DNA of 64,000 bases from Aporhodopirellula rubra (GTDB lineage Bacteria > Planctomycetota > Planctomycetia > Pirellulales > Pirellulaceae), in the NCBI RefSeq assembly GCF_014192335.1, contig NZ_JACHXU010000024.1, positions 62,001 through 126,000 on the forward strand. Direction: 5' to 3'. Below are positions 2,137-31,694 of the stretch, piece after piece. Within the stretch, counting starts at the first letter, position 1. Each line of letters begins with the position of its first letter. Under the pieces are notes generated by a model that saw only the letters and a program-made list of their open reading frames with translations, ran no database searches and was not told the origin of the DNA. The position numbers and the translations under genes were made by a program.

Positions 2137-3540
2137 TTATCTTGCCAACTCTTTGAGTTGCAGAAATCGCTTCCGCATCTCGCCCAATTTCACCGCATGC
2201 TCAGGATTGCTAGCGAGATCCTTTTCCTCGATTGGGTCGTCCGTCAGATCAAATAGTTGTTCGCGTTCGAACTCCGGCCAGTACATGTATTTCCAGCCTT
2301 TGCGAACGAGGGCTTCGGACGCCGGGATAAACTCGGTGGTCTTCAGCATGGGATGTTCGTAAAAGAACTCTTCTCGCCACTGTGGTTTTTCGCTGGCGAG
2401 ATAGAGCGTACTGAAATCACGGCCCTGCATGGTTTCGGGAGCATCGATCTTTGCCGCGGCCAAGATCGTTGGCGCGAGATCCACGTTCAACGTGAACTCA
2501 TCGTTGGTTTGGCCGCCGATGTTCTTGGGCATCCGCGGATCACGCACGATCAATGGCACACGAATACTCTCTTGATGTGGGTACCACTTGTCCGCCAATC
2601 CATGTTCGGCGTGGTAGTAGCCGTTGTCGGTCGTGAAGATAACCAGAGTGTTTTCATCGATACCCTGCTCTTTCAGTTCAGCAAGAATGCGACCGCACGT
2701 CGTGTCGACTTCCGTGGCCAAGCGATAATAGTTCTTCATCATCGTTTGATATTTCTGCGGCGTATCAAAACGCCAGTGCCATCGGTTACGACCTTCATTC
2801 TTTTCATTTCCCACGAACTCAGGCAATCGCTCAAAAGATTCTTGAGTTGCGTTCACCGGGACAGGAATCGTGACGTCTTGATAGGGGTCCATGCTTTCAG
2901 GTTGCGGCAGGAACTGCAGCGGGTTGTGATCTTCCGCATGCGTGGCAAAAAACGCAACGGTCAAACAAAACGGTTTGTCATCCGGGCGAGTCTTCAGGAA
3001 TTCTAGTGCGTCATTCTCGTTCTTCTGCGTGACATGAATCTTTGTTCCATCAGGTTGGTCAATCCAATGGGTTCCCGCGTAGACGCGGCTGAAGTCAAAT
3101 TGCTGTGCGGGAATCCTGCCGTTGTGCCACTTGCCGACATGGCCGACGTAGTAACCATGATTACGCAACAAACCAGGGTAGCCTTCTTCCCAAGGCGTCT
3201 TCCATGGTTTAAAGGACTGATTTCCGTGGCGGGACATCCATTGGCCCGTAAAAAGCGTCGCGCGGCTGATTCCGCAGATCGCCGTGGTGACGCAGTTGTG
3301 AGTGAAGCGGATTCCCTCACCGGCCAGCTGATCGAGGGTTGGGGTTTTGACAATGGGATTTCCCGCGACCCCCAAAGTGTCATGCCGCCAATCGTCGGCG
3401 TAGAGAACCAGTATGTTCATACGACTCGGCGGAGCAGTGCCCTCGTCAGCGTCGCACGGTTGCATATCGGATTGGATTGACACGGCCAATATGCAGAACA
3501 ACACCGAGAGGCAGGTCGGCTTGGGAAATTTGTGTTTCAT
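2137..3540 (-). CDS. Type I sulfatase with an unusual C-G-I-S-R active-site motif
   Basis: The protein has 467 residues with an N-terminal signal peptide (hydrophobic core about residues 8-23), so it is exported. The S1 sulfatase core begins at LVLYADD (metal ligands D49-D50). The formylglycine site is at C89-G-I-S-R93, followed by TLFTGQ. The usual consensus is C-x-P/A-x-R, so the third position is Ile here. [18 protein letters not shown] carries the second set of Asp/Asn/His/Lys ligands. The C-terminal [14 protein letters not shown] is canonical. It is the last gene of the minus-strand polysaccharide block, 120 bases after the DUF1080 gene. It probably removes a sulfate ester from an algal sugar; the specific sugar is unknown. 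Confidence 0.9.
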
Positions 3541-3604
3541 TGGATTCGATTCGATCGGGAAGCTGATTGTTCTGAAATGATTAGTATCTGAACCAGACCC
3601 TTCG

Positions 3605-3640
3605 GCACTCTCTACGCTTAAGCCTCAGCGAAGAGAGTGC
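3605..3640. repeat. Intergenic two-tier hairpin
   Basis: The outer arms GCACTCTC (3605-3612) and GAGAGTGC (3633-3640) pair perfectly. Inside them CGCT (3615-3618) pairs with AGCG (3627-3630). It lies in the 120-bp gap between the DUF1080 gene and the downstream sulfatase. No U-tract follows on the minus strand, so it looks more like an RNA-processing or stability element than an intrinsic terminator. Confidence 0.45.
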
Positions 3641-3660
3641 TTGCCATGGGCCGGGTGTGT

Positions 3661-4464
3661 TCACTCGGCTAGTTCTTTGACTTGGATATTTTTGAACAGA
3701 ATCGTGCCCGCATTGCCTTTGTGAACCTGCAGTGCAAAGAATCCGTCGGCGTAGGTGCCGTCACCGACCCAGTGCGCACACGGCACTCCGTTGAGCCACG
3801 TTTTGACCACGTCACCTTCGGCGGAAATGGTGACGCGATTCCATCCCGTGGCGTCTTCGGCTGCTCGAGCTTTTTCATGTTCCTTCAACCACAATGGGTA
3901 AAAATGTCCGCCGCAGCTTTGTCCATAGATGCCGCCGGACCAGTGGCGGCCCTTCTTGCCCTGTCCTTCGATCTCCACTTGAGGACCGTACACAATCTCG
4001 GACGTCGCCGCGTCTGTTTTTCCCGGTTTCGTTTTCGAGCGAAACTGAACGCCCGTGTTGCCATCGACTTCCATCTTCAGGTCGCAGGTAAAGACGAAGT
4101 TCTTGTAGTTCGATTTTTCAGTACACAGATACGTACTGTTGGATCCCGGCACGCACGTTCCAATGATCAGCCCATCTTTGACTTCGAATGTGCAGGTTCC
4201 GCCTTTGGCAACCCACCCTGTCAAATCGGTGCCGTTAAATAGAGGCTCGAATCCATCGCTCAAATCAGGCTCGTCGTCAGTATTGAGCAACATCTCTTCG
4301 GGGTTGGGCGCGTTCGGCTGCTTGGAATACGGTTTCGACCATGCTTGCTGTTGCGGATCTAGCTCCTGAGCGACTGCATCGGAGCACACACAAGTTAAGC
4401 AAACCAGTGTTACTGGAATCAATAGTCGGATGCACATCGCGTTTAGTCTCGTTGTCAGGTTCAT
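3661..4464 (-). CDS. DUF1080 (3-keto-disaccharide hydrolase family) secreted protein
   Basis: This is a DUF1080 jelly-roll protein (concanavalin-like lectin fold) of 267 residues. FEPLFNGTDLTGW opens the domain, which ends in FKNIQVKEL at the C terminus, both classic family marks. The start at 4464 is preferred over a more upstream in-frame one. It gives a clean signal peptide (LLIPVTLVCLTCVCSDAVA) and has AAGGA upstream at normal spacing. Some family members hydrolyse 3-keto-glycosides or bind glycans, and planctomycetes carry many. Here it sits between a GH10-like gene and a sulfatase, which suggests a binding or accessory hydrolytic role in the same pathway. The substrate is unknown. Confidence 0.85.
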   Translation of the reverse strand: MNLTTRLNAMCIRLLIPVTLVCLTCVCSDAVAQELDPQQQAWSKPYSKQPNAPNPEEMLLNTDDEPDLSDGFEPLFNGTDLTGWVAKGGTCTFEVKDGLIIGTCVPGSNSTYLCTEKSNYKNFVFTCDLKMEVDGNTGVQFRSKTKPGKTDAATSEIVYGPQVEIEGQGKKGRHWSGGIYGQSCGGHFYPLWLKEHEKARAAEDATGWNRVTISAEGDVVKTWLNGVPCAHWVGDGTYADGFFALQVHKGNAGTILFKNIQVKELAE

Positions 4465-4643
4465 GTTCGTTCCTTGGTTGTAGAAAACTTGAAAGGCATT
4501 GTATGGCCCCTTCTCTCGCCACCTGGTTTGCAACCTATAGATGAGCGTCACGAAAGAATGCCAATACTTTACTTGCCGATGCGTTCGTTCGTCAGTGTAT
4601 CAACGTCTTTGTTGGCTCGGGAAGTTTCGAGACGTCCGCGTTT

Positions 4644-6587
4644 TCAGTTAGAAAGAACATGGACGATCGTTTTTGGTTTCGCAAGTTGCACCCGCAATTC
4701 GGTTCCATCGGAGGTCAACGTGGTGTCCACTGTCTTGATCATCTCACCGTTCGTGACAGTGATTTGATAGTCGCCCAGGAAACCGCGTAGTTGACTGTTG
4801 CCGTTGTTGTCGGTGCGAGTCACTTCGTCGGTCCACCACTGGTTTGCGACGAGGTCGACGAATGCGTCGCCTGCGGGCTTGATGGTCCAATCTTCACGCC
4901 ACAACGCCGCGGCGGGCTTCCAGTGCATCTTTTCCCAAAACCCCCATTGCACGATCGCGACAAAGTTTGGGTGGCTGAACGAGGCGATCATGACGTCGCG
5001 GTAGTAGTCGGCCTGCAACTGTTCGTCATCACCCGTTTCGACATCGAATTCACTGAGTTGCAGACGTGGTGCAATCTCGGCGAACTCGTCATAGACCTGC
5101 AACAGTTCTTCGGGCGGCGTGAGAGATGTCAAACCGAAGTGGGCCATGAAACCGACGATATCAGGAGCTTGGCCTTGTTCGTTTAGAAAGCAAATGATCT
5201 TTTTGTACGGCTCTCGCTTGTATCCGTCGGGCAGCACTTTCCCTTCGTTGATCGCATGCGTTGCGTGAGGAGCCAGACGTCGAGCTTCAGCCATGATCTC
5301 GGCGTAAATCTCGGGGCCGCCGTACTCAATCTCATACGTGTGTTTTCCCCAACCAATGATGTGATTGATCGTATCCCATTCGGTGACATAGCCGGCGGTC
5401 GCGGGTAACACGTCATTCATGTGCTCCCACAGCCAAGCCCGGTGTCCCTCGGGATTGCCGACGAATTCTTTTTCGACAGAATTGAAGTCCATCGGCGCCC
5501 ACGCGACATAATGACCACGGGCAGTAATGTTGTTTTTGATTAGCCATGGAATCGTGTTTTCGGTGAAGATACGGTTCTTACGTTTCCAAGAGCCTTCGTC
5601 GGTATTGAGCAGCTTCCAAACATGAGGTCGCAACTCGGCTTCAAAGGTGACTCGGTCAAAATACTTCTTCACGACTTCGCGGTATTTCTGAGCTTCCTCC
5701 CAAGTAACGACAATGTTCCTCTTGGGGTTGATCGGAAAATCGATTTCGTCGGCACCGAGCATCTCGGAATTGACCGCGTTGCCGAATCCAAATGCATGCT
5801 GCTGCATCGCGACATGAACTTGGGCGTTCGAAACGGGACGATCTTCGGCATCGACTACCGTGATCTTGAGATCCCCCTTGCGCAGTTGCTCAATTCGGGC
5901 GAGTGCTTCTTTCCGCCAAGCAGCATCTTCTTCGCGACCTTTGTACATGATCGTTGACCGTGGCAACGTCGTGATATCCCGTTCGTTGCCGTAGTTCACC
6001 AGTCGCAAACCCGCGATTTGCACAACGGTTCCGGCTTCGCCGAGTTGCATGCGAAAACAGGACTCCGCCGGATCGAAGTCTTGATTCGCCTCGAACGATC
6101 GAACGTGCTGGGTCCATTCGCGATACGCGGATAGGTTGTAACGGTACGATGTTTCGCCGATCGCCGAGTCAACGTAGAGGTAGGCGTTGTTCGGTTGACC
6201 ACCCGCACCCGGACGACGCATCCAAAACGAGAGCAAGACGACATCGCCTTTGGAAACGGATCCGTTGATCGGAATGTTCACTCCGATGTTTTCAGGATCA
6301 CTGAACCGAGTGTCCGTTTCGACGCAGTACACGTCGGCGAAAGACGTGTCTTCGGATTTGATCCATTGCGCCTCGCCAGTGACGTTGCGAATTTCAAACT
6401 CAACCGAGTGCTCGGGACCAAACGACAGCACGTCGACTCCGCCTTCGGGCGGCACGATGACGGACGATTGCGAGAATGCGTTTTCAGCGGAACTGTGGTA
6501 AGTGAAAGTCAGCGAGAAGACGATCGCAAGGATCGCGGAAGCGGAAAGCGTAAACCTATCAACAAGGTTAGCGTCGGTGTTGTGCAT
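4644..6587 (-). CDS. GH10-like endo-beta-1,4-xylanase homologue with altered acid/base site
   Basis: The protein has 647 residues: an N-terminal hydrophobic export segment (about 12-30), a carbohydrate-binding-like beta-sandwich (about 40-200) and a GH10-type TIM barrel (about 240-600). GH10 landmarks are visible: NAVNSEML, a TFEAELRPH strand, GFMAHFG, and the nucleophile strand LSEFDVE with Glu at 513. The general-acid strand, usually W-D-x-x-N-E, reads WDTINH, so His409 replaces the acid/base Glu. The barrel may therefore use another acid, act on an activated substrate, or only bind. The gene lies between a GH78 rhamnosidase and a DUF1080 gene, in keeping with a xylose-containing or otherwise beta-linked algal glycan. 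The family call is good; activity is uncertain. Confidence 0.8.
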   Translation of the reverse strand: MHNTDANLVDRFTLSASAILAIVFSLTFTYHSSAENAFSQSSVIVPPEGGVDVLSFGPEHSVEFEIRNVTGEAQWIKSEDTSFADVYCVETDTRFSDPENIGVNIPINGSVSKGDVVLLSFWMRRPGAGGQPNNAYLYVDSAIGETSYRYNLSAYREWTQHVRSFEANQDFDPAESCFRMQLGEAGTVVQIAGLRLVNYGNERDITTLPRSTIMYKGREEDAAWRKEALARIEQLRKGDLKITVVDAEDRPVSNAQVHVAMQQHAFGFGNAVNSEMLGADEIDFPINPKRNIVVTWEEAQKYREVVKKYFDRVTFEAELRPHVWKLLNTDEGSWKRKNRIFTENTIPWLIKNNITARGHYVAWAPMDFNSVEKEFVGNPEGHRAWLWEHMNDVLPATAGYVTEWDTINHIIGWGKHTYEIEYGGPEIYAEIMAEARRLAPHATHAINEGKVLPDGYKREPYKKIICFLNEQGQAPDIVGFMAHFGLTSLTPPEELLQVYDEFAEIAPRLQLSEFDVETGDDEQLQADYYRDVMIASFSHPNFVAIVQWGFWEKMHWKPAAALWREDWTIKPAGDAFVDLVANQWWTDEVTRTDNNGNSQLRGFLGDYQITVTNGEMIKTVDTTLTSDGTELRVQLAKPKTIVHVLSN

Positions 6588-6734
6588 TGCTATTGTTCTG
6601 AAGAGGTTGCCGGGTTTTGTATTTTTAGATTGCGATAAGAAACCAAGGGCTTCAACGCAGTGTTGCGGTTTGGTTTGGAATGATGATTGGAAGATTCAAT
6701 GTGTCAGTGGCTTTCGAGATCGATCGCCTCGAGA

Positions 6735-9653
6735 CTACCTGTTCAGCGAGAACTGATGCGTTCCTGCCGCGAGAGTCTGGCTCTCCTTGCCTCCCCGGAA
6801 AACGACCGTCGCCGTCGTGTTTGGCGGGACGACGACTTCCATCTCGAGTCTTCCTTTCCGCAGTTGCCAACCACTGACGGCGGTTCCGTAGTTGGTTTCG
6901 AGCTCCGCACGTGCTGACGTGAGCGGCCCACCGACAAGTGGACGGACGAAGAAATGCTTGTAGCCGGGATGGTTCGGATCGGGCGTCAAGCCGGCAACGC
7001 GTTCGTACATGAATTGACCGATCGCACCGTAGGCATAGTGGTTGTACGAGTTCATGCTCGCGTCCCCGAATCCATCGGCGTGGCTGTAGCTATTCCACCG
7101 TTCCCACATCGTGGTCGCGCCCTGGTTGATCGAAAAGAACCACGACGGATAGCTTTCTTTGAAAAGTAATTCATAAGCGATGTCCGAATACCCCAGTTCA
7201 TCGAAGACCGGAGCGATCAGTGGTGTCCCCAAAAAGCCGGTTCGCAGGTGCCGATCCGCGTCTTCGAACTGTTTCAAAAGGATCGCTTCCACTCTTGGTC
7301 GCTGGTCAGGTTCAATCAGGTCGTAGCCGAGTCCCATCAGGCAGGCGGTTTGGGTGTTCGCACCGGGATGAGGTTTCTCACCTGGAAAAAAGCGTTTTGT
7401 AAACGCCGTTCGGATGTCGGCGTGTAGTTGGCCGTATCGCTTTGCATCGCCATCGTTGCCCAGTGCGGAGGCGGCTAAGTGAAGAATACGGACGTCGCGT
7501 CCAAAGTAGGCGGTGGCGATCAACTCCTGGGCCGTATCACCTTTGCGGTCTGTCTTGGTGTAGGGCTGCAACCAATCGCCCCATCCTTTTAGATCGGGGA
7601 TCAAATCCTTCGAGCGACGTTCATAAACCGCCACCCATTTCTTCATTGCCTCGTAGTTGTCACGCAGAATGCCCTCATCGCCTGTGCGTACGTAAACCTG
7701 CCAAGGTGCCGTCACGATCACGTCGGCCCAACCCGGGCTTGCGTAGCCAAATGGCGTCGAAGGCACCGTATGTGGAATCTCTCCCTCACTGGTTTGCTCA
7801 TCACGTACGCTTTGCAGCCAACGAGCCCAGAACGAATGAACGTCAAAATTGAAGAACGACGTTGGCAAGAAAACTTGAGCGTCACCCGTCCAACCGAGTC
7901 GCTCATCACGCTGCGGACAATCGGTTGGGATGTCAACAAAGTTGCTACGCTGGCCCCAACGAATATTGCTTTGCAATTGGTTCAGCTTGTCGTGCGACGA
8001 CGTAAAGCTGCCCTTGGATGGAAAGTCGGTATGAATCACGTTGGCAACAACGGATTCGGTGGTTAACTCTTCACCCCTGGCCAGCCCGCTCAGTTCGACG
8101 TAGCGATAGCCAAAAAACGACAGCGACGGTTGATAAGTGGCCGTTCCGGTCTCGGCCGCGACGTAGGTGGCTTGCGATCGAGCGGAGCGGTAGTTTGCCG
8201 TGTAGAGCGTGCCGTCCTGTTGCAGCATTTCCGCGAAACGGATCAAAACCGTTTCGCCTTTCGTGACGGGGATCGTGACTGCCGGAACGCCGACTTGGTT
8301 TTGACCGAAATCGAAAACGTACTTGCCTGGTTCCGGCTGAGTCATCTCGACCGCGTTCAGCGTCTTCATGACTTGAATGGGTGGCAATCGTTTCGGAACG
8401 ACCGAAGGTTTGTTGCCCAGTTCCGTTGACTTCACCGGCATCCAATCCGCATCGTCGTAACCAGCCTCGGCCCATTTACCGAGTGATTTTGACGCGTCGT
8501 AGTCCTCACCGTGATAGAAACCTCCGGCGCGAATCGGTCCCTGGTCAGTCGCCCGCCAACTGTCGTCGGTCACGATCGTTTCGACGCTGCCGTCGGCGTA
8601 GGTGAGTTCCAACTGTGCGAGCAGTTTCGGCGTCAGTTTGGCCAAATCGCTACGTTTACGAAGTAACAATTTGCCCGCGTACCAGCCCTCACCGAGCACC
8701 GCGCCGATCGCGTTGTTACCATCGTGAACCAAGTCGGTTACGTCGTAAGTCAGCGACTCGACGCGTTTGGAATACATGGTGTATCCCGGCGACAGCATGT
8801 CGTTACCAACACGCACACCATTGATTTGGAACTCATAGATCCCCAGAGCCGACGCATAAAGGCGAGCTTGCATAACTTTCTTCGGCGATTCAAATTCTCG
8901 CCGCATGTAGTAGGCAGGGTGGGCCGTGGTCTTGGGATACGGATCAAACGCGCCATTCTCAGCCACTTCTTTTTGCTTGCGAACGCCATTGATGTCGTAT
9001 TCCACCCACAGGGTCTTATCGTCTCCCGGAGCAGGGTCACCGCCGAGTCGAGCGGGAACAACTCGGATCGGCGTCGATCCACGCTGGATCGCTCGTCGAA
9101 TGTTCTCGGTAACAACGCGAACCTTATCGCCACCCGCGATGCGATTGCCGAATTCCGCCTTCAATATCTTTACTTCGTCGGGCTTGCGACTCCCGCGGTC
9201 CAACTCGATCCACTGAGCGTTCCAATCATCCTGACCAAGCAATCCCATTTCGATCGTGGCCTCGTCGCTCCACTCGGACTCGCGATTCTGATCGTCCCAA
9301 AACTTGACGCGCCACGTGATTTGTTGTCGTGAATGAAACGAGGGGCCCTCGTAAAGAATCCACACCGATTGATCGGATTCCACTTTGCCGGAGTCCCAGA
9401 TGGGATCGGTGTTTTCATCGGACACGGATTTTGGCTGAACAATGATTCGGTATGCAGTTTGTGCTTTGACGTCCTCGTCGACGGGCAGCTTCCACGAGAA
9501 CACCGGCGTCGAATCGTAATAGCCGACCGGGTCAACAAAGTTCTCCCCGACGGTGAGCGAGTGTGGTCGCAATTCGTTCGCGACAGCGCAGGTCGTGCCG
9601 AGCCAAAGCAATAGCACGGGGAGCGAAATTCGGTTTAAGTTGAAGTGATGCAT
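6735..9653 (-). CDS. Secreted alpha-L-rhamnosidase, GH78 (first copy)
   Basis: The protein has 972 residues with a signal peptide (LPVLLLWLGTTCAVA). It shows the full GH78 layout: N-terminal fibronectin-like and beta-sandwich domains, then the (alpha/alpha)6 barrel. The diagnostic block TDCPQRDERLGWTGD carries the catalytic acid region, and GWGDWLQP and TTMWERWNSY follow further on. The C-terminal domain has the SARAELETNYG-type sandwich. GH78 enzymes release terminal alpha-L-rhamnose by inversion. It starts 9 bases after the stop of the upstream sulfatase, so the two are almost certainly co-transcribed. It shares the family, but little close sequence, with the second GH78 at 11126-13972, which suggests different linkages or sulfation states. 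Confidence 0.93.
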   Translation of the reverse strand: MHHFNLNRISLPVLLLWLGTTCAVANELRPHSLTVGENFVDPVGYYDSTPVFSWKLPVDEDVKAQTAYRIIVQPKSVSDENTDPIWDSGKVESDQSVWILYEGPSFHSRQQITWRVKFWDDQNRESEWSDEATIEMGLLGQDDWNAQWIELDRGSRKPDEVKILKAEFGNRIAGGDKVRVVTENIRRAIQRGSTPIRVVPARLGGDPAPGDDKTLWVEYDINGVRKQKEVAENGAFDPYPKTTAHPAYYMRREFESPKKVMQARLYASALGIYEFQINGVRVGNDMLSPGYTMYSKRVESLTYDVTDLVHDGNNAIGAVLGEGWYAGKLLLRKRSDLAKLTPKLLAQLELTYADGSVETIVTDDSWRATDQGPIRAGGFYHGEDYDASKSLGKWAEAGYDDADWMPVKSTELGNKPSVVPKRLPPIQVMKTLNAVEMTQPEPGKYVFDFGQNQVGVPAVTIPVTKGETVLIRFAEMLQQDGTLYTANYRSARSQATYVAAETGTATYQPSLSFFGYRYVELSGLARGEELTTESVVANVIHTDFPSKGSFTSSHDKLNQLQSNIRWGQRSNFVDIPTDCPQRDERLGWTGDAQVFLPTSFFNFDVHSFWARWLQSVRDEQTSEGEIPHTVPSTPFGYASPGWADVIVTAPWQVYVRTGDEGILRDNYEAMKKWVAVYERRSKDLIPDLKGWGDWLQPYTKTDRKGDTAQELIATAYFGRDVRILHLAASALGNDGDAKRYGQLHADIRTAFTKRFFPGEKPHPGANTQTACLMGLGYDLIEPDQRPRVEAILLKQFEDADRHLRTGFLGTPLIAPVFDELGYSDIAYELLFKESYPSWFFSINQGATTMWERWNSYSHADGFGDASMNSYNHYAYGAIGQFMYERVAGLTPDPNHPGYKHFFVRPLVGGPLTSARAELETNYGTAVSGWQLRKGRLEMEVVVPPNTTATVVFRGGKESQTLAAGTHQFSLNR

Positions 9654-9662
9654 GGTGGGGAT

Positions 9663-15450: not shown

Positions 15451-15516
15451 CGTTTGGATCGGCTTAGTTCGATTATTCGAGTCAGTTTCGTCACAGTGTC
15501 GAGGGATCACGTCTAC

Positions 15517-18428: not shown

Positions 18429-18429
18429 C

Positions 18430-22818: not shown

Positions 22819-22919
22819 CACGGGTAGGATGTCGCGATCTTGAAAGAACAGCAACGACAGCACGCCTTTTCGAGTGCACCGGAGTAAAACGCATTGAGCG
22901 TTCCAACTCACGGTGGATG

Positions 22920-24857
22920 TCAGATAACGGAAACTTGGCACTGAACGATCGCGTTGGTTGGAGATAATTGAACAACGATCGGAACCGCTTCGGCGCCGGG
23001 GACCATGTTGAAAAATCGGCCCTTCTCGGTTGCCTTGATCGTCATCGGAGCATCCGATTCGACGACAACGGTACCTTGCGGCTTGACGATTTCGATTCGT
23101 GTCTCGGAGACTTGCCGAACTTCTTCACCCGACGGCGAAATGATCGGAAGCACCAACGCCGCGGTGTACTCCTTTACTGCCAGAGGAGAAACAGAAGCTG
23201 AGATCAGTGCGTGCGTGGCGTTGAATTGATATTGAAGTTCGCACGCCGAAGCGTCGCCGGCGAGCTTGTCGCGTGACTCGTTTTGCAGCGACGTCTTGAC
23301 CTGAATGTCGATTTGCTGCCCGTCGTCGTTGGTGGTTAGATCGGCCGTCAAGTCATACAGATTCGTGTACCAACCGTCGTCCCTGCGACTTTCGAGGCGA
23401 GTCGTCAGCGGGAAGTCTTCCCCCGGTTGTGGCTGCATGTTCAACGGCTCGACCATTTCGTAGCGTGCCATGCTTGACGCGAGTAGCAAGCCCACTTTGT
23501 CGTGGTAGAGCACCGCGAGCGAACCGCCGGTGGGTTGTTGCAACAGGCCGGATTTCTTTGTCTTGTAAATCGAATCGTATGCCGAAATCGTCGCTCGCCA
23601 TGGACCGCGAGCCGCCAACCACACGTCCAATTCAGGAAAGTGCTTGACTCCGTCCGCCGTTTGACGCGGTAGAGGCGTCGTGCTGTCGACTTTGGGCATC
23701 GCGTGCATTTTGTCTTGCACGAGTGCCATCACTTTCGCGTGAGCGAACGTGTGGTGCATGCAGGGTTTCATGCCGTGGGAAACGTAATGCGGGCCGCCGT
23801 GCAAAAGCCCATCGGCGGTGCATCGCTGCAACAACTCCGCGTTCTTGATCGCAGCAGTGCCGAATGCTGGGTTGTAGCCCGCCATCAGGCTGAACGCGGG
23901 CTGGCAACCGTCGGACGTGCGGCTGCCCCAGTAGCTCCATTTCTGCGAGCGGGTGCCCCAACTGTTATCCCACGCACCATCGGGCAACATGAATTCCAAG
24001 TGACCGTTGAGAGTCTTGACGGCAAGGTCCAGCATCTCTTGGTCGTTGATTGCGAGAGCGTAGAGAACGACACCGTTAAGTGATTCTTCGACGTTGTAAC
24101 CAAGGTCCACCGGCAGCAGCCCGCGACCGCTGCGGTTGCTATTCGGTTTGCCTTCACCCCACAACAGCGAGTTCGGCCGCGTGAAGAACTCTTTGACTCG
24201 TTTCGCGAATTGTTCACTTCGCTGCGTGTACTTCGGATTGTTCAGCAATTCGCCAAACAGGTGAAAACCATAAACGCCGGTCATCCCATAGTTGAGATTG
24301 GTGAAATCAATCTTCTTAAAGTCACGAGAGAGATAACCGCCCACGGCTTCGTCCAGACGTTTGGTCCAGGCAGTTCGCCGCTGTTCGTCCAACACTTCCC
24401 CGTGGTAGTGCAGTGCTTCGGCGAGTGCGATCGCACCGAAGATGGTCGTGCCCCGCCATGCTTTCGGATTGATGTCGTTGGTCCAACTCCCATCAGGTTG
24501 ACTAACGTTGTTTTCAGCCCACTCGTAAACGTTGATCGCCGCGTCAAGGTATTTCCGTTGACCGGTCGCGTGCGCCAGGTGCATGAACGGATACAACGCA
24601 TCGCTACAGCGTCCGTGAATATGGCTGCATGCCGGGCAAAGGAGCGCGCCGTGCAATCCAGGATTCCCCGGCTCGTTAACCTGGTGCCGAATCATGCCGT
24701 CACACCAGTCCGTCAGCAGATTCTTGGTAAGCCGATCAAACTCCGTCCCAGCCGTATCGCCCGCAACAAGCTCGGCCCCGAAGGATGGGAGATTGGTAGA
24801 AATCGTTGCCCCGATGCCAATACCGGCGACCAGCTTATTGAAGTCTCTACGGTCCAT
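22920..24857 (-). CDS. Tat-exported (alpha/alpha)-barrel protein of unassigned carbohydrate-active family
   Basis: The 645-residue protein has a twin-arginine leader (DRRDFNKLVAGIGIGA). The next 350 or so residues are helical, with the CPACSHIHGRC cluster at 74-84 and PDGSWTND, as in (alpha/alpha)6-barrel uronyl hydrolases and lyases. A beta-sandwich occupies the last 250 or so. No CAZy family can be named with certainty. GH105/GH88-like unsaturated uronyl hydrolase, GH154-like glucuronidase, or the oligosaccharide dehydratases reported in ulvan breakdown are all possible by architecture. Tat export implies folding before secretion, perhaps because of the cysteine/histidine cluster. The ATG at 24857 follows a 540-bp gap, so a promoter for the downstream genes probably lies just upstream. 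Confidence 0.65.
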   Translation of the reverse strand: MDRRDFNKLVAGIGIGATISTNLPSFGAELVAGDTAGTEFDRLTKNLLTDWCDGMIRHQVNEPGNPGLHGALLCPACSHIHGRCSDALYPFMHLAHATGQRKYLDAAINVYEWAENNVSQPDGSWTNDINPKAWRGTTIFGAIALAEALHYHGEVLDEQRRTAWTKRLDEAVGGYLSRDFKKIDFTNLNYGMTGVYGFHLFGELLNNPKYTQRSEQFAKRVKEFFTRPNSLLWGEGKPNSNRSGRGLLPVDLGYNVEESLNGVVLYALAINDQEMLDLAVKTLNGHLEFMLPDGAWDNSWGTRSQKWSYWGSRTSDGCQPAFSLMAGYNPAFGTAAIKNAELLQRCTADGLLHGGPHYVSHGMKPCMHHTFAHAKVMALVQDKMHAMPKVDSTTPLPRQTADGVKHFPELDVWLAARGPWRATISAYDSIYKTKKSGLLQQPTGGSLAVLYHDKVGLLLASSMARYEMVEPLNMQPQPGEDFPLTTRLESRRDDGWYTNLYDLTADLTTNDDGQQIDIQVKTSLQNESRDKLAGDASACELQYQFNATHALISASVSPLAVKEYTAALVLPIISPSGEEVRQVSETRIEIVKPQGTVVVESDAPMTIKATEKGRFFNMVPGAEAVPIVVQLSPTNAIVQCQVSVI

Positions 24858-25399: not shown

Positions 25400-26719
25400 T
25401 CATGGATTGGCAGAGGGCTGAGCGACCCATTTTTTCAAAAGACTCACCATCGACGATATCTGCTCGGGATGTTTTTCCGATACATCTACTCGGTCATCGG
25501 GGTCGGATTTTAGATCGTAAAGTTCGTTTCCCGTGGGACACGCAATGAGTTTGTTCCATCCGTCAATGACAACGCGAGCAACCAAGCCATTGTCCAAGTC
25601 TTCGAGATGATCCAAATCGCTGTCGTGCTCATACACGTCCACAAACACGCGGTTGCGTTCCTGCAATGACTCGGGATCACGCAAGTCGAGCCCGGTCATC
25701 TCCGCAGGTGGCTGGATATCACAAGCGTGCAAGATCGTCGTTGCGATATCGATGTTGCTAGCCAAAGTCGTTTTGTTGCGAGCAGGTTTGATGGCTGCTT
25801 CATGCGTGATGAAAATCGGTGTCCGGATACCCGCTTCGACAGGCTCCCGTTTGGAGCGGATGCTGACGTTCTTGCGTTCGGGATTCTGAACCCAGCCGTT
25901 ATCACATGTAAAAACGAAGATCGTGTTCTCATACATGTTCTTCTGCTTCAAGTAATCCACGATTTGCCCGCAACCTTCATCAAGCCATTCCACGTTGGCC
26001 CAGTATCGCGCCGTCGGCTCGTCGGGGGCGATGTCTTTGTACTTATTGAAGAGCCGGTCCGGCGCGTTGTGTGGTGCGTGTGGAAGGAAGACCCCGTACC
26101 AGATGAAGAACGGTTGTTCTTTTGCTTCGGCTTTATTGACGAAATCATAGATCGGCTGCATCGTCTCGCGGCCGATCTTCAAACCAACGTCACCGTGCCG
26201 TCCGCCACGCGAATGATCGCCATGGGTCATCGCATCGGTAAACCCGTGGTCCAGCGGATTGCCTTCCCACCATTTGCCGGTCTGCAGCGTCGCGTAACCG
26301 TTCTTCTGCAGTTCCTTCACGAATGATGGAAACTTCAACATCGGCGCGGTCATGCGGACTCGGAACTCGGTTGAAATCTCGCGGTACTTTACCTCTTTGC
26401 GGTTGGTCCCCGCAGGCAACACAGGATCGTTTCCTCGGATGCCGATTTGGTGTGGGTACATCCCCGTCACGAGGCTAGCGAGAGACGGTCGACACAGCGG
26501 AGCGGTGACGTACCCCCGCTCATAGACCAGTCCACGTTTCGCCAACTCGTCAAGGGCTGGTGTTTGAATATGAGGGTGCCCCATCAATCCATAATCGTCC
26601 CATCCTTGATCGTCGCTGAGGATGAACACAACGTTGGGACGTTCGGCATGGAGCGATGTGGCTGTGAGCGTCGTCAGGAAAGCTAGAAAGCAGGCTGTAA
26701 AGAGTCGGTTCATCATCAT
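25400..26719 (-). CDS. Sulfatase homologue with C-R-P-S-L in place of C-x-P-x-R
   Basis: The protein has 439 residues with a signal peptide (LFTACFLAFLTTLTATSLHA). Three tandem ATGs lie at 26711-26719, and an in-frame TTG lies 30 bases upstream. The S1 core is intact at FILSDDQGWDDYGLMGHP, FVFTCDNGWVQNP and LYDLKSDPDDRVDV. The activation site is Cys76-Arg-Pro-Ser-Leu80, so the Arg that helps activation and catalysis is replaced by Leu, while SLVTGMYPHQIG follows as normal. I recall planctomycete sulfatases with similar sites, so this may be a distinct functional subfamily rather than a dead enzyme. It lies 33 bases after the next sulfatase. Its substrate is probably an algal sulfated sugar. 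Confidence 0.88.
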   Translation of the reverse strand: MMMNRLFTACFLAFLTTLTATSLHAERPNVVFILSDDQGWDDYGLMGHPHIQTPALDELAKRGLVYERGYVTAPLCRPSLASLVTGMYPHQIGIRGNDPVLPAGTNRKEVKYREISTEFRVRMTAPMLKFPSFVKELQKNGYATLQTGKWWEGNPLDHGFTDAMTHGDHSRGGRHGDVGLKIGRETMQPIYDFVNKAEAKEQPFFIWYGVFLPHAPHNAPDRLFNKYKDIAPDEPTARYWANVEWLDEGCGQIVDYLKQKNMYENTIFVFTCDNGWVQNPERKNVSIRSKREPVEAGIRTPIFITHEAAIKPARNKTTLASNIDIATTILHACDIQPPAEMTGLDLRDPESLQERNRVFVDVYEHDSDLDHLEDLDNGLVARVVIDGWNKLIACPTGNELYDLKSDPDDRVDVSEKHPEQISSMVSLLKKWVAQPSANP

Positions 26720-26752
26720 CCAGAGTTTGAAAGGCAGGTTGGAATTCAATTT

Positions 26753-28180
26753 CTAATTACGAGACGCTCTTTTGGGCTTCTTTCGAGGAACCCAAGTCTC
26801 GGGGGCGTCCAGCATCAGAGGTTCGTGGAACACGGTCAACGCATCACCCTGCGAGTTAATCCAGGCGTTCAATTCGGATCGCAGTTCGGACTCGACGTTT
26901 GCGAGTTTCGCTGTTCCCGCGAGATTGGTTAGTTCGTCGGGATCCTGCTGAAGATCGAACAACTCGTATTCAGGCCTCGCGTAGTACCTCGACACAATTG
27001 CATTTGCTTCAGCGTTCGTCTTCGCCGCTTCCATCCACTCCTTGAAATAGTCTCCCGAGGTCGCGCGGAGCAGAAGATCGATGTAGGACGTGAACGCAAA
27101 TTCTGGATGCGGATTCCATATCAACTTGTGTCGATGCGTGCGGACGCTGCGACTCAGGTAAACGTTCATCAAAAGATCACCGCTGTGCGTCGCGAAAATC
27201 CGCTCGCGATGTTGTTGTGAATTTCCCAGGAGAACCGGCAAGAAAGATCGCCCATCCAATTGTTCCGGTAGGTTTCCGCCGCCGATTTCGATCAGCGTCG
27301 GAAGGATATCAATCCAGCTCACCATCGCGTTGGTTCGCGTGCCTGCTTCGATTTTGCCTTTGTGTGAGACGATTAGAGGCACACGAATGCCTTCATCGTA
27401 AAGGCACCATTTCCCAAACGGAAATTGAGCACCGTGGTCACTAGAGAAGACAAACACTCTGTCGGCGGATAGATGGCGGTCGCATAGCGAACGTAGTTCC
27501 CCCAAGTACGCGTCGAGATTTTTGACTTCTTGCAGATAACGCGAACGTTGGACACGCGTGCGTGGCGTGTCCAGCAATTGTGGCGGTATTGTCATCGACT
27601 CCGGATCGACAGTCGATTCGCTGGGCCAAGGCACATGCGGATCCGATACCCCGACAAAAAGAGCTAGCGGGCGTTCGTCGGTTCGTTTCTCGAGAAAGCT
27701 TCTAACGGTTATCTGCAGGTCCGGAATGTTCTGTTTCAGGTCATAGACATCAAAGTGGTAATCGGGGGCACTACGCAAATGAGCAACTTTGCCAAACGCG
27801 GCGGTTTGGTAACCGAGGTCATGCAACACTTTGGGAAGCCGCATGACATCGTCACGCGGGTAGCTATGATTTTCTTCGGCTCCGTTTCGAGCTGGCATCA
27901 GTCCGGTCAATAACGCCGCTCGACTGACCGCACAGGACGGGCTAGCGACAAAGGCCTGATCGAAGGTCATGCCTTCCGCGGCCAATTGATCGATCGCTGG
28001 TGTCTTTATGTTTGTGCCACCATAAAGCGGTAAATCTCTCGCCGAGAGATCGTCCGCCAGATAGATGACAATGTCAGGCAATCGCTGTTCGGCGGAGTAC
28101 GCTGGCCTTGTGCAGATTGCAGACAAGACACCGACGATTGCTAAAAGGCTCAGGAAGAGTCGGTTTGTGATTCCGATCAT
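26753..28180 (-). CDS. Sulfatase, sulfamidase/iduronate-sulfatase-like, with C-A-V-S-R site
   Basis: The 475-residue protein has a signal peptide (LFLSLLAIVGVLSAIC) from the ATG at 28180; a TTG at 28192 is the alternative. The S1 core reads IYLADDLSARDLPLYGG, then SPSCAVSRAALLTGLMPARNG with Cys83 as the formylglycine candidate and Val at the third motif position instead of Pro or Ala. FSSDHGAQFPFGKWCLYDEG carries the late ligands. The short active-site loops resemble N-sulfoglucosamine sulfohydrolase-like (S1_8-type) enzymes. That family also occurs in known ulvan loci, so an O-sulfatase role is plausible. It is the middle member of a GH2, sulfatase, sulfatase series on this strand. Confidence 0.88.
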   Translation of the reverse strand: MIGITNRLFLSLLAIVGVLSAICTRPAYSAEQRLPDIVIYLADDLSARDLPLYGGTNIKTPAIDQLAAEGMTFDQAFVASPSCAVSRAALLTGLMPARNGAEENHSYPRDDVMRLPKVLHDLGYQTAAFGKVAHLRSAPDYHFDVYDLKQNIPDLQITVRSFLEKRTDERPLALFVGVSDPHVPWPSESTVDPESMTIPPQLLDTPRTRVQRSRYLQEVKNLDAYLGELRSLCDRHLSADRVFVFSSDHGAQFPFGKWCLYDEGIRVPLIVSHKGKIEAGTRTNAMVSWIDILPTLIEIGGGNLPEQLDGRSFLPVLLGNSQQHRERIFATHSGDLLMNVYLSRSVRTHRHKLIWNPHPEFAFTSYIDLLLRATSGDYFKEWMEAAKTNAEANAIVSRYYARPEYELFDLQQDPDELTNLAGTAKLANVESELRSELNAWINSQGDALTVFHEPLMLDAPETWVPRKKPKRASRN

Positions 28181-28616
28181 GTGTTCGTTCAAATGTGGGG
28201 TAGAGGCTTGATGGAAAACGAACCGGTCGCTCGCACATGGGAAGCCGCACTTCTATTTCCCGTGTTCAATGAAAGAAATTGCGACGAATCGCGTGAGAAT
28301 GCGAGCATTTGGAGTGTTTGGACCTGAGTCCAGGTCGGGATAGCGTCATTTCGTGAATCAAAAGCGGCGGACGGGGAGTAGAGTTGCTGCGTTGAACGGT
28401 GAGCCTACAGTTGCATTTTTCAAGATGTTTGCGAGTTGGTTGCTTCCTTCCCGCACAAGTGTGCCACTCCTTGTCGAGCGACTCCACCGCGTTGTGATCG
28501 TGTGTTTACCTCGGCTGAATACCGCTCATCAAGACTTCGCATTGCTGGACGAAATTGGCTGATCGCTCCGCGGAGTCGGACCGATTACCCCGCAAATCCT
28601 TCTCGCAGATGGGGTG
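28181..28616. other. 436-bp intergenic interval with a small palindrome
   Basis: This lies between the GH2 gene and the next sulfatase on the same strand. The hairpin GACCTG-AGTC-CAGGTC is at 28321-28336; no U-tract follows on either strand. It could be an operator or stability hairpin, and the gap is long enough for a promoter. No gene is supported. Confidence 0.35.
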
Positions 28617-31600
28617 TTAATCGTTTGCGACTGGTTTGCAGAAAAGGATCATGTTCAGATGGGAGGTGCGTCCCTTTCCTTGGTCCGCGTTTCCGGGAAT
28701 TCGAAGTTCTTCATTCTTCGCAAGACGCGTCCGGTAGATCTGCAGTCGTCCTCGATTGAGATGAACTTGGTCACCGGTTTTATCGAAATCCTTCAGCCAG
28801 TTCGGTTGTGGGACTTTCACGTCATGTGCCACGAACAGATCGATATCTCGCCCGGCGGTTGCGACGATGTAGTCAGCGGCCCAATAGGCACTGTCGTTTT
28901 TGGCGGTACGAATGACGCGACTGTCTTTCAAGAATTCGGGCACTTCCTTGATGTAGATTCTTGCTTCGTCGGAATACGGTAGCATCTCGTGTTGGTACGG
29001 CGTCTCTGTTCCGCCCACACCATTGCCCGTGTAGGCGAACATTGAAAAGAGTCGATCGTCTGCGGCGTTTTCAGCGAGCGTAACTCGAGGGGCGTTTATC
29101 AACACGGTGAGCTCTGCAAGTTTGGCCGCGTCAATTTCAGGACGCTGTGGCAGTGAGGTGTCGAAAACAGGCGGCAGCGAATTCATAATGCCGCGGTGGA
29201 TTTCGACAGGCTTTGATTGAAGTCGCAGAGTAGCTGATGCGAGACCCTTTCGGTGCGCCGTGATGACAACTTCACCCGGTTGGGGTTTGGAGCGGATGCT
29301 GACGCGATTGATTCCGCACTCGGTATCGAGGTAGAAGTGGTTGGTGCTGTCTTCCTTGCCACTGTTGTAACCACCACGCCAAACACTGGGGCCAGATACA
29401 TCAAAGTCAACGCGGGCTTGGTCGGTTGGGCAACGACAGCCTTGCGCGTCGACGACTTCGAAATCGATCAACGCGATGTCAGATCCGTCCGCCCGCCATC
29501 CGCCGGGTGCCGTCGTTGGCGTTAGTCGAATGGCTACAGGCTTTCCTGCTGTTTGCTTTACTTGCCTTGCGATCTCAATTTCATCTCGGTACGCGACGAC
29601 TTTGATCGCCCCGGGGTCGAAAACGACGTCTGGCCAAGTGAAAAGCGTCCCAAAACTGCGTTGTCCCTCACCGAGGCATTTTCCGTTGACAAACAACTCC
29701 GCTCTGTCTGCCTTCGAGACCGCGTATATCGGTTTCACGGTCCCCTGCGGATAGTTCCAATGTCCGATCAAGTGAACGCGGTCATCATTGTCCCACGTTG
29801 CCTGCAGTGCCCAGTACGCTTCTTTGGGGAGTCGCACTGCGTCGACTTCACCGGTCGCCCGGGCGCAATCGGTTCGTTGCCGCGTTCCGTGTGTCCCGTC
29901 CGAGAAGATCCAGTTCGCACCTCCCGAGTGATCAGGCTTGCTTCCAAACAAAGTCCACCACTCTTCGATCGCGTTGGTTGCAAAACCTTCCGATGTGAGG
30001 TTGTAGGTATTCAATTCAGCGAGCTTGCCGAGGCTGCCAAAATCCGGTGGAGAGTATTTGTCCCAAACACGGCGAGGTGTCTCGGTCCGGTCATACTCGG
30101 TTTCCACGACGGGCAATGATGGGAACGCACGTGTTCGTCCCACCGTTCCCAATTCCAAGTCAATGCTTTCAACGATCTCGGGCGTCGACATACGGAAGCC
30201 AAAATAGCGTTGTCCGCGAGGATCCCATTTTTGCGTGATCGCTTTCATCTCGGCGGCATGGCTTGGGCTAACGCTATAGTTGCCGCCTTCCCAGACACAG
30301 ATCGCGGGATGATTGCGATAGTAGATGATCATGTCGCGGAACGCCGCGGTGCGAATCTGCCAGGCTTCGCCGTGACAATCTTTCTCGCCGTCGACACCCG
30401 GCATGATGGTCACAAAGCCATATTTGTCGCTGCTTTCAACCCCGACGGCCGGCCCCGCGCAGTGCCCCCAGCGGATCAGATTGCCACCGGCCTCTTCCAT
30501 TAACTTCAGAGTGTAGTCGTGCATCCAGTTCGGAATGCCGGCTCCCAATCCGGCCCACCCCGCAATCGGCTTCTGGCCCCATCCATGCAGCTTGAGAGGA
30601 TGGCCGTTGATCCAAAAGCCCGTGTCCCTGTCAAAACGAAAGTTGCGAATACCGAACGGGCTGGTGCTTGTGTCACGTTGGGTTCCATCAACACTCACCG
30701 CGACTTCCACCGTGTAGACATACGGGTAGTCGGGTTCCCACAAGTGCGGGTCGGTGACGTTCAGCGATGATTCGACCTTGGTTCTCTCGCCCGCTGCGAT
30801 TTTGGTCATTTTCTCAGTGCAAGCAACAATTTCACCATCGTGTCCACGCAGCGAAAACGTCACAGTCGCATCGGTGTCCATCTGCTGTGAGTTTTCCACT
30901 TCTGCGGTGAGGCCAACAACCGCTCGATCTTTGCTGAGCGATTCGGTCCAAGCGTAAACGCCCTCAGTCCCCAATTTTCCATACAGTGGCAATGTCACGT
31001 GGACTGGATCGAGTACGTGAAGATAGACGTTGCGATAGATGCCGCCGTGAGGCGGATGCCAATTCTGATGATGCCACGGCGTGGTACCGGAGTAGAGTTC
31101 CGGTTCGACTGCGTTGTTTGCTTTGACCGCTAAAACGTTTGTGCCGGTCTTATTGAGGTGTGGAGTCAGGTCGAACCCGAAGGGGATGAAGCCGGTCTTG
31201 TCGGTCCCGAGGTGATGCCCGTTGAGATAGACATCGGCGATTTGCCGAACGGCCTCGAATTCAAGGACGACTTGCTTGTTCGTTGCGTCGGCGGGCAGCG
31301 AAAACTCTTTGCGATACCAAGCCGTTCCCTGCCACAGGTCGGTTTCACCTTGGTGTCCGCCGGTTCCGAAATCGTCGAACGTGTCGATGTCATTCCAAGT
31401 GTGAGGACAGCTAACGGTCGTCCATTGGCTGTCGTCAAACGTTGGCGATTTCGCCCCCTCGGCATCATCGCAAAGGAAACGCCAGTCGGCGTTGAGGCTC
31501 ACCTTCCGCGGCATGGAGTTGATGTTTTTGGTCGTGTCCGCAAAACAAACTGGATCAGAAACCAATACTGCGATGACGATTAGCAAAAGCGTCAAGCAAC

Positions 31601-31694
31601 CGACTGGTCGTCCGGGCGCGCAAATTGGCGACGGATCCCGAATAGCAGAGAAGACGCTGCGGAGTAGATAGTGGTCAAATAGTAACGCGGACAT
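28617..31694 (-). CDS. GH2 family glycoside hydrolase (beta-galactosidase/glucuronidase superfamily) with altered acid/base residue
   Basis: The 1025-residue protein has a long N-region and the hydrophobic export segment CLTLLLIVIAVLVSDPVCFA. GH2 domains run in order. The sugar-binding jelly roll carries NADWRFLCDD, WYRKEF and YLNGHHLG. The immunoglobulin-like domain and the TIM barrel follow, the latter starting FWINGHPLKLHGWGQ. The nucleophile strand is VVETEYD (Glu about 533), and Ig-like domains end the protein. The general acid, normally N-E after N-H-P-x-x-x-x-W, reads WEGGNYS, so Tyr about 473 replaces Glu. A GH2 subgroup with a relocated acid is possible. It is the first gene of the minus-strand polysaccharide block, with a 436-bp gap after it. 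ATG 31694 is used; a TTG eight codons upstream is the alternative. Confidence 0.88.
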   Translation of the reverse strand: MSALLFDHYLLRSVFSAIRDPSPICAPGRPVGCLTLLLIVIAVLVSDPVCFADTTKNINSMPRKVSLNADWRFLCDDAEGAKSPTFDDSQWTTVSCPHTWNDIDTFDDFGTGGHQGETDLWQGTAWYRKEFSLPADATNKQVVLEFEAVRQIADVYLNGHHLGTDKTGFIPFGFDLTPHLNKTGTNVLAVKANNAVEPELYSGTTPWHHQNWHPPHGGIYRNVYLHVLDPVHVTLPLYGKLGTEGVYAWTESLSKDRAVVGLTAEVENSQQMDTDATVTFSLRGHDGEIVACTEKMTKIAAGERTKVESSLNVTDPHLWEPDYPYVYTVEVAVSVDGTQRDTSTSPFGIRNFRFDRDTGFWINGHPLKLHGWGQKPIAGWAGLGAGIPNWMHDYTLKLMEEAGGNLIRWGHCAGPAVGVESSDKYGFVTIMPGVDGEKDCHGEAWQIRTAAFRDMIIYYRNHPAICVWEGGNYSVSPSHAAEMKAITQKWDPRGQRYFGFRMSTPEIVESIDLELGTVGRTRAFPSLPVVETEYDRTETPRRVWDKYSPPDFGSLGKLAELNTYNLTSEGFATNAIEEWWTLFGSKPDHSGGANWIFSDGTHGTRQRTDCARATGEVDAVRLPKEAYWALQATWDNDDRVHLIGHWNYPQGTVKPIYAVSKADRAELFVNGKCLGEGQRSFGTLFTWPDVVFDPGAIKVVAYRDEIEIARQVKQTAGKPVAIRLTPTTAPGGWRADGSDIALIDFEVVDAQGCRCPTDQARVDFDVSGPSVWRGGYNSGKEDSTNHFYLDTECGINRVSIRSKPQPGEVVITAHRKGLASATLRLQSKPVEIHRGIMNSLPPVFDTSLPQRPEIDAAKLAELTVLINAPRVTLAENAADDRLFSMFAYTGNGVGGTETPYQHEMLPYSDEARIYIKEVPEFLKDSRVIRTAKNDSAYWAADYIVATAGRDIDLFVAHDVKVPQPNWLKDFDKTGDQVHLNRGRLQIYRTRLAKNEELRIPGNADQGKGRTSHLNMILFCKPVAND

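Follow-up and report, generated by a model that had tools for sequence, protein, structure and literature searches.

We analysed a 64,000-nucleotide stretch of the genome of the planctomycete Aporhodopirellula rubra (Pirellulaceae; contig NZ_JACHXU010000024.1, positions 62,001 to 126,000, hereafter the window), which lies within one of the 75 contigs of an 8.55 Mb genome. Fourteen minus-strand genes spanning window positions 2137-31694 form a locus that, as judged from its gene content, family relationships, catalytic signatures, conservation and co-occurrence and with a probability of roughly 0.78, degrades ulvan or a very similar sulfated glucuronoxylorhamnan via secreted enzymes. Green-tide algae have ulvan as their main wall polymer. 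In the parts of the literature covered here, the pathways for its breakdown are those of Bacteroidota and Pseudomonadota; planctomycetes are common on algae and rich in sulfatases. A variant of the ulvan type is well supported by the sequences, namely one in which known downstream enzymes are joined by a PL42/GH145-like propeller in place of the expected PL24, PL25 or PL40 lyase, and in which the usual hydrolase for the unsaturated uronate is lacking. An earlier sequence-only reading of the window had suggested breakdown of ulvan or a related rhamnose-3-sulfate polymer, and this suggestion gains support from best matches to Formosa enzymes, from a PL37/P29 signature and from genes shared with the Alteromonas plasmid pAlt76. 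The locus points to a substrate class, a recurring gene core, a regulator pair and several enzymes worth assaying. The titles and abstract openings listed by literature searches contained no description of this planctomycete locus (subscription papers lay outside this coverage), nor did the portions covered of PMC8857213, PMC4807772, PMC10233909, PMC12078418, PMC13050008, PMC12365756, PMC8594234 and PMC9676036 give an account of it; other papers are likewise cited for the portions covered.

Gene content and layout of the locus

The 14 minus-strand genes that the sequence-only reading had placed at 2137-31694 were all found as uninterrupted open reading frames (ORFs) at the same coordinates, the ATG of the GH2 gene at 31694 coinciding with the reported end of the locus:

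2137-3540, minus strand: S1 sulfatase, closest to Formosa P36_S1_25 (best PDB match 6hr5; motif CGISR)
3661-4551, minus strand: DUF1080 / 3keto-disac_hyd domain protein, possibly with a binding or hydrolase role (PF06439, 1e-35)
4644-6587, minus strand: GH10-like protein (PF00331, 1.3e-23)
6735-9653, minus strand: GH78 alpha-L-rhamnosidase (PF17389, 1e-109)
9663-11129, minus strand: S1 sulfatase, closest to Formosa P18_S1_7 (best PDB match 6hhm; motif CAPSR)
11126-13972, minus strand: GH78 alpha-L-rhamnosidase, second type (PF17389, 3e-65)
13969-15450, minus strand: clan GH-A-type hydrolase of unassigned family (ELGNE and EW motifs; profile match to GH51 structures)
15517-16965, minus strand: S1 sulfatase (best PDB match 7an1; motif CSPSR)
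16962-18428, minus strand: BNR_4 propeller-type protein, PL42/GH145-like (best PDB match 7esk, FoRham1)
18430-22911, minus strand: GH106 alpha-L-rhamnosidase with a C-terminal extension of ~300 aa (PF17132, 2e-185)
22920-24857, minus strand: PL37/P29_PDnc-type protein, oligosaccharide dehydratase or, as disputed, lyase (eight-residue P29 pattern)
25400-26713, minus strand: S1 sulfatase (best PDB match 6bia, distant; motif CRPSL)
26753-28180, minus strand: S1 sulfatase, closest to an S1_8A enzyme (best PDB match 9bb9; motif CAVSR)
28617-31694, minus strand: GH2 enzyme (best PDB match 6hpd)

Pfam bore out the families named earlier, with Sulfatase in five genes, GH78 domains in two, and Glyco_hydro_106, BNR_4, GH2 domains, Glyco_hydro_10 and 3keto-disac_hyd (DUF1080) in the others; the ORFs 13969-15510 and 22920-24857 matched no Pfam family at E 0.001. 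The 4-bp overlaps reported before were recovered for three neighbouring pairs (exactly 11129/11126, 13972/13969 and 16965/16962) when the downstream start codons are used, and the remaining junctions within 6735-24857 are start-dependent gaps of 1 to 66 bp. An early hydrophobic stretch, judged by eye, is present in each of the 14 ORFs as taken. The window was also said to contain no SusC/SusD pair, and indeed none of the 30 window proteins scanned was SusC/SusD- or TonB-like.

The locus holds five sulfatases in 29.6 kb, compared with 156 Pfam matches in the 8.55 Mb genome (model matches, a few genes being split into two), which corresponds to a Poisson P of ~2.4e-4; this figure overstates the case because sulfatases cluster generally in this genome. 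Stronger evidence for a real cluster comes from other genomes, in which its genes are again found together.

Sulfatases and GH2 enzyme

PDB comparisons were made by phmmer, and sulfatase subfamilies are given as those of the nearest solved structure. The GH2 enzyme matched 6hpd, which we take to be Formosa P17_GH2, with E 4e-296 and 988 bits, about four times the score of the next chain (245 bits). The sulfatase at 9663-11129 matched 6hhm (E 4.5e-126, 425 bits) and the one at 2137-3540 matched 6hr5 (E 1.5e-71, 245 bits; next chain 153 bits), whereas that at 26753-28180 gave only a weak match to its nearest relative, the S1_8A enzyme 9bb9 (E 4e-39); by best PDB match, the S1_7, S1_25 and S1_8 types are thus each represented in the locus. 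For the sulfatase at 15517-16965, presumably S1_20-like, the best structure was 7an1 (E 7e-74), and the one at 25400-26713 is distantly related to 6bia (1e-33). A Cys-type motif is present in each of the five.

6HHM and 6HR5 are P18_S1_7 and P36_S1_25 of Formosa agariphila, which act on the 2-sulfated xylose (Xyl2S) and 3-sulfated rhamnose (Rha3S) of ulvan, and 6BIA is PfS1_19A, a carrageenan enzyme of S1_19 (PMC9096561). The sulfatase at 2137-3540 is accordingly closest to an exo-acting Rha-3-sulfatase and that at 9663-11129 closest to a Xyl-2-sulfatase, as far as sequence likeness can tell. PMC9096561 and PMC8360166 disagree on which of S1_7 and S1_8 acts endo or exo, both placing the two on sulfated xylose. 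The ulvan reading gains support because, for the GH2 enzyme and two sulfatases, the best PDB match is a solved Formosa enzyme.

A PL37/P29-type protein

The 645-aa protein encoded at 22920-24857 had no PDB relative and, at the thresholds used, matched none of the Pfam and NCBIfam families; it starts with MDRRDF, which by eye is twin-arginine-like. The sequence-only reading had listed it as an unassigned barrel protein; the protein is there and is family-less in Pfam as said, and its identity can now be completed, since it carries the PL37/P29 signature of a dehydratase-type protein. In Formosa, the dehydratase P29_PDnc was predicted by means of the PL37 model and studied through eight mutants (D248N, E254Q, E255Q, D269N, D290N, R300E, K303I and Y306F), of which the Asp, Arg and Lys mutations are said to have abolished activity and Y306F remained active (PMC8511951); the residue numbering in that paper is inconsistent (R230/R300; Asp242, Arg294 and Lys297 in a legend). 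At identical spacing, the protein of the window carries D251, E257, E258, D272, D293, R303, K306 and Y309, and the eight-residue pattern matches once across the six frames of the window, with a chance expectation of about 2e-8 from the composition of this protein. In a tblastn alignment, every one of the 24 homolog rows (22 distinct, since L002/G212 and L006/G159 are the same loci) has all eight residues unchanged, and they are also identical in an alignment with two Draconibacterium copies; among the relatives that keep the set are those of Draconibacterium (55%) and Persicobacter (51%). The register was judged from the mutated residues and their spacing, the alignments not including the Formosa sequence WP_038530528.1 itself. 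The ulvan reading is strengthened because these eight residues are in register. The reaction of PL37/P29 proteins, dehydratase or lyase, is disputed: lyase activity of P29 was looked for and none was found according to the covered part of PMC8511951, and PL37 is counted among the CAZy ulvan lyase families in PMC12915356.

Within the family, 23 of 241 genomes encode the dehydratase-type protein (hereafter the dehydratase), among them 18 of the 159 of good quality; in one of the 23, G208, it is in two fragments. The comparisons draw on neighbourhoods of this gene, each of up to 40 kb, from 20 of the 22 other positive genomes (G145 and G208 being left out); several of these neighbourhoods are cut by contig ends.

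A PL42/GH145-like propeller

The BNR_4 protein (16962-18428) had been compared with PL24/PL25 lyases in the sequence-only reading, and this comparison has to be replaced by PL42/GH145. Its best PDB match is 7esk (FoRham1; 1.5e-46, 162 bits), followed by GH145 5muk (1.5e-28), whereas chains of PL24-type ulvan lyases reached 2.6e-9 to 3.3e-5 with 39 bits or fewer, and at 0.001 there was no match to any chain named as a PL25 lyase. FoRham1 is an L-rhamnose-alpha-1,4-D-glucuronate lyase with known active-site residues (PMC8377490); with an offset of 2, all 12 named residues agree with the printed chain, and the propeller is identical at 11 of them, including His85, His105, Tyr150 and Arg166, with His in place of Tyr26. 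All 11 ortholog rows (9 distinct) retain the equivalents of these four residues and the Tyr26 to His exchange, and the equivalents of Gln276 and Glu381 vary in some orthologs. GH145 enzymes act as lyases via this anterior site (PMC8406133). Because the FoRham1 residues are kept and GH145 enzymes show anterior-site lyase activity, the propeller very probably acts on the Rha-alpha-1,4-uronate bond, the bond type cut by ulvan lyases; judged by its sequence, it is not a PL24/PL25 member despite this shared bond type.

Propellers of Persicobacter and pAlt76 also keep the His85, His105, Tyr150 and Arg166 equivalents, and the latter differs at those of Ser170, Gln276, Arg331 and Glu381. A second BNR_4 group (L012:9458-10780; in G048 and G049 near the dehydratase) has Leu at the equivalent of the catalytic Arg166, which suggests a different or lost activity. 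Two further BNR_4 copies in the A. rubra genome were considered as a missing ulvan lyase and set aside: the copy on contig C13 is without the Arg166 equivalent and none of eight other ORFs scanned around it is a carbohydrate-active enzyme, and the copy on contig C10 is a weak BNR_4 match (93 bits), for which no comparison with PL24/PL25 structures was made.

Canonical lyases and unsaturated-uronate hydrolases

Absence of lyases was called with one query per family. PL24 and PL25 queries came from pAlt76, picked by counting its genes against the gene numbers of PMC6431674, and a PL40-type query from Persicobacter was picked by residue spacing alone, exact for three residues and shifted for later ones. 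The three queries had no match in the A. rubra genome (PL28 not being among them), and a convincing PL24, PL25 or PL40 lyase was found in 0 of the 23 dehydratase-positive genomes, PL28 again not being searched. The PL24 query matched in 9 of 241 genomes, always at 39.5 bits or less, with the dehydratase-positive G048 and G049 at ~27-30 bits. This genome-wide search was less sensitive than tblastn, missing PL24 likenesses in the window and seven neighbourhoods (45-64 bits), each of which is a PL42/GH145-like propeller gene; the only one in the window is the propeller itself (47 bits). The PL25 query matched in 29 of 241 genomes (one at 379 bits in G204, two at ~100 bits, the others at ~46 bits or less), none of them dehydratase-positive; the G204 gene (G204:C1:4069661-4070968), which matches the PL25 protein of pAlt76 at 45%, lies in a Pirellulaceae genome without the dehydratase. 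The PL40-type query matched in 0 of 241 genomes, in a search in which no positive control was matched.

Of the dehydratase-positive genomes, 9 of 23 have a Pfam match to GH88/GH105 (above 120 bits in 4 of these) and 14 have none, 5 of the 14 being of lower quality; the 18 good-quality genomes divide into 9 with a match and 9 with none anywhere. In A. rubra itself, the matches are one GH88 domain of half length, far away from the locus, and one GH76 protein with a marginal GH88 score, a full-length GH88/GH105 protein not being found in its genome. By tblastn, no homolog of the GH88/GH105, GH3, GH39, PL25, PL40-type or KduI queries used was detected in the window, the 40 kb upstream of it or the 20 neighbourhoods; as a control, GH105/GH88 queries match each other between Draconibacterium and Alteromonas at ~255 bits, the GH3 query being without such a cross-phylum control. 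That planctomycete homologs of the dehydratase lack a GH105/GH88/GH3 context was already published (PMC8511951). Our additions are the propeller and the genome-wide GH88/GH105 counts, which sharpen that remark (9 of 18 good-quality genomes have no match at all) and raise the question of which enzyme removes the unsaturated uronate.

Other glycoside hydrolases

Three alpha-L-rhamnosidases are present by Pfam, two of GH78 and one of GH106. The GH78 enzyme at 6735-9653 shares 45% identity with a rhamnosidase on the ulvan plasmid of Alteromonas 76-1, and the second (11126-13972) scores 962 bits with NF041572, under the cut-off of 1800 of that model. C-terminal residues ~1190-1493 of the GH106 protein have no Pfam match of their own, and this extension is conserved (70-80%) without the GH106 part in 5 of the 20 related loci, as if it were a separate gene.

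In the 513-aa GH-A protein, ELGNE and EW motifs are conserved in an alignment, and a profile of 8 homologs matched GH51 structures (E 3.6e-7). An assignment to GH39 was not confirmed, the Pfam GH39 match being weak (E 0.0034) and BLASTP giving no match to the pAlt76 GH39 domain. The GH39 enzyme of Formosa is an endo-rhamnosidase on xylose-rich ulvan (PMC8360166), and by analogy the GH-A protein might, at a guess, be its counterpart.

The GH10-like protein was compared with the canonical acid/base Glu and nucleophile motifs of GH10 as we take them to be. It keeps the nucleophile motif SEFD and has no Glu at the acid/base position, where His stands instead (WDTINH), as it does in all 10 GH10-like ORFs compared (that of the window included), two of them at ~26% identity.

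Distribution in the Pirellulaceae

Orthologs of the locus genes are unevenly distributed over the 20 neighbourhoods: the S1_8-like sulfatase in 15, the S1_20-like and the S1_19-distant sulfatase in 13 each, the propeller in 8, the first GH78 (one copy partial) and the GH10-like protein in 7 each, the S1_7-like sulfatase and GH2 in 4 each, the S1_25-like sulfatase and DUF1080 in 2 each, and the GH-A protein and the second GH78 in 1 each. A GH106 domain at 60% or more was found in 5 of 20 and any GH106 domain in 7 of 20. Across the family, a propeller ortholog is present in 13 of 241 genomes, 12 of which also have the dehydratase (Fisher P 2.8e-13, uncorrected for relatedness, with an ortholog threshold of 53% identity set after a gap had been seen between 54% and 45%).

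Related loci also hold further gene families. A family of ~825 aa, absent from the window, whose scanned member (L022:5844-8321) is a DUF1080-GH78 fusion, is present in 15 of 20 dehydratase loci, and AraC-type regulators occur in some of the other dehydratase neighbourhoods. A family whose scanned member (L052:13892-15217) is an L-rhamnose isomerase occurs in 6 of the 20 neighbourhoods, from which the ulvan reading gains further support.

Proposed pathway and alternative explanations

If the locus acts on ulvan, the neighbouring pair of ECF sigma factor and LamG protein would switch it on, and the chain may be opened at Rha3S bonds to glucuronic or iduronic acid (GlcA/IdoA) by the PL42/GH145-like propeller, the PL37-type protein or both, xylose-rich stretches perhaps being opened by the GH-A and GH10-like enzymes. 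To judge from the closest characterised enzymes, the S1_25-like sulfatase would remove the 3-sulfate from terminal Rha3S, and the S1_7- and S1_8-like sulfatases would remove Xyl-2-sulfate. GH78 and GH106 could then take off terminal rhamnose, or the propeller may instead eliminate rhamnose to leave an unsaturated uronate; the PL37-type protein would dehydrate terminal GlcA/IdoA to the same unsaturated sugar, and GH2 would remove a beta-linked branch or end sugar. More tentatively, a Pirellulaceae ulvan pathway may do without canonical endo-lyases and, in many species, without GH88/GH105: the propeller would be a Rha3S-uronate lyase, the PL37-type protein would add unsaturated ends, and removal of the unsaturated uronate would fall to an enzyme new to this job, whether the GH-A protein, the GH10-like protein with its His substitution or the DUF1080-GH78 fusion found in related loci. 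This extension is doubtful as it stands.

Several observations weigh against ulvan as the substrate. Because no convincing PL24, PL25 or PL40 lyase (PL28 being unsearched) and no full-length GH88/GH105 was found for this genome, the usual enzymes for the first cut and for removing the unsaturated sugar are not accounted for. The most ulvan-diagnostic orthologs (S1_7, GH2 and S1_25) are rare in related loci, and the pAlt76 propeller need not do the same job as that of the window, since several rhamnose-side residues differ. By sequence likeness, two of the five sulfatases (25400 and 15517) are nearest to enzymes of other sulfated glycans, the chains nearest to the latter being, as we assume, galactose sulfatases. 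The subfamilies are not exclusive either, S1_25 also holding a fucose-3-sulfatase and S1_7 a carrageenan sulfatase (PMC9096561). Finally, Pirellulaceae rise during the decay of Ulva, and ulvan breakdown is mainly early, before their rise (PMC12365756), a timing that speaks mildly against a major role of the family in this process.

The alternative that survives best, and one we consider possible, is a mixed locus, in which a core (the PL37-type protein, three sulfatases and the propeller) serves one rhamnose/uronate polymer and S1_7, S1_25, GH2, GH106, the GH10-like and the GH-A enzymes are exchangeable add-ons for xylose-rich or branched variants. The neighbourhood counts agree with it, core genes being found in 8-15 of 20 and add-ons in 1-7, although the add-ons of the window lie on the same strand as the core and are joined to it by 4-bp overlaps; moreover, such a mixed locus overlaps with ulvan degradation and does not exclude it.

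Unlikely, in our judgement, is the degradation of another rhamnose-containing sulfated glycan (sulfated arabinogalactan protein (AGP), a microalgal exopolysaccharide or rhamnan sulfate) by the same enzyme families. There are precedents, since Bacteroides plebeius uses GH145 lyases and a sulfatase on sulfated AGP (PMC8406133) and sets of GH78, GH106 and sulfatases are described in Verrucomicrobiota feeding on diatom methyl-pentose polymers; the two sulfatases with other nearest relatives fit as well, as does the propeller, whose nearest characterised enzyme acts on gum arabic. However, the clear best matches of GH2 and of the S1_7- and S1_25-like sulfatases are Formosa enzymes, the Formosa ulvan pathway is the source of the characterised protein with the PL37 signature, and none of the 14 genes has a GH43 Pfam match. 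A general scavenging or decayed cluster without a single substrate, which the 156 sulfatase matches of the genome might bring to mind, is highly improbable given 14 of 14 intact frames, conserved catalytic residues and the joint presence of propeller and dehydratase in nearly all genomes with a propeller ortholog.

Regulator pair and surroundings of the locus

Three genes adjoin the locus:

32577-33809, minus strand: DUF1559 pilin-like protein, locus edge (PF07596)
33979-34623, plus strand: ECF sigma factor (PF04542/PF08281)
34590-36374, plus strand: LamG-domain protein (PF13385)

The ECF-sigma/LamG pair (33979-36374), an addition to the sequence-only reading, probably belongs with the locus and regulates it. 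Both families are present in 11 of 21 loci, the window counted; the ECF sigma factor shares 26% identity with that of pAlt76, and the LamG proteins of window and plasmid gave no tblastn match. A DUF1559 pilin-like homolog is present in 12 of 20 neighbourhoods, with further copies elsewhere. Upstream of the window (L010:11247-18545), GH97, GH116 and sulfatases form a separate sugar cluster on the opposite strand, and these sulfatases were not counted with the locus. Further along the window, a 961-aa ORF without a Pfam family at 0.001 lies between a sulfatase and an ExbB-like gene (42844-45729), and a GH92 gene (60993-63347) follows a pair of PSCyt/PSD1 and DUF1501 genes.

Comparison with known ulvan and rhamnosidic systems

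Compared with the polysaccharide utilization locus H (P10-P36) of Formosa agariphila KMM 3901, the A. rubra locus has likely counterparts of P17_GH2, P18_S1_7, P36_S1_25, P32_S1_8, GH78 and the P29 dehydratase. Unlike the Formosa locus, it has no detected PL40, GH105 or GH3 and no SusC/SusD in the window, its S1_25-like sulfatase and GH78 are separate genes, and it contains GH106, the PL42/GH145-like propeller, the GH10-like and GH-A enzymes and the adjoining ECF/LamG pair. With respect to P29_PDnc/PL37, all eight mutated residues are in register, and there is no GH105/GH88/GH3 beside the protein of the window.

Alteromonas 76-1 grows on ulvan, a trait linked to its plasmid pAlt76 (PMC6431674). 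The plasmid shares with the window a GH78 (45%) and an S1_7-like protein (44%; fused to GH39 there), and two gene pairings are common to both: BNR_4 (28%) directly beside GH106, and an ECF sigma factor beside a LamG protein (LamG/FecR on the plasmid). The plasmid differs from the window by encoding PL24/PL25 lyases, GH88 enzymes, TonB receptors and KduI/KduD and by lacking a dehydratase homolog. A plasmid cluster of Persicobacter combines the dehydratase (51%) with GH2 (45%), S1_7 (50%), a fusion of an S1_25-like sulfatase (33%) with GH78, BNR_4 (29%) and an 817-aa protein, in which N-H, E and Y stand at the PL40 spacing given in PMC12915356 and the later Asp and HxH are shifted. The ulvan reading gains support because of the genes shared with pAlt76, whose host grows on ulvan, and with the Persicobacter cluster. 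FoRham1 (PL42) and BT3686 (GH145) are the best sequence matches of the propeller, which keeps their anterior active site with His for Tyr26; in contrast to these two enzymes, the propeller of A. rubra lies in a locus of the sulfated-rhamnan type and not in one for gum arabic or AGP.

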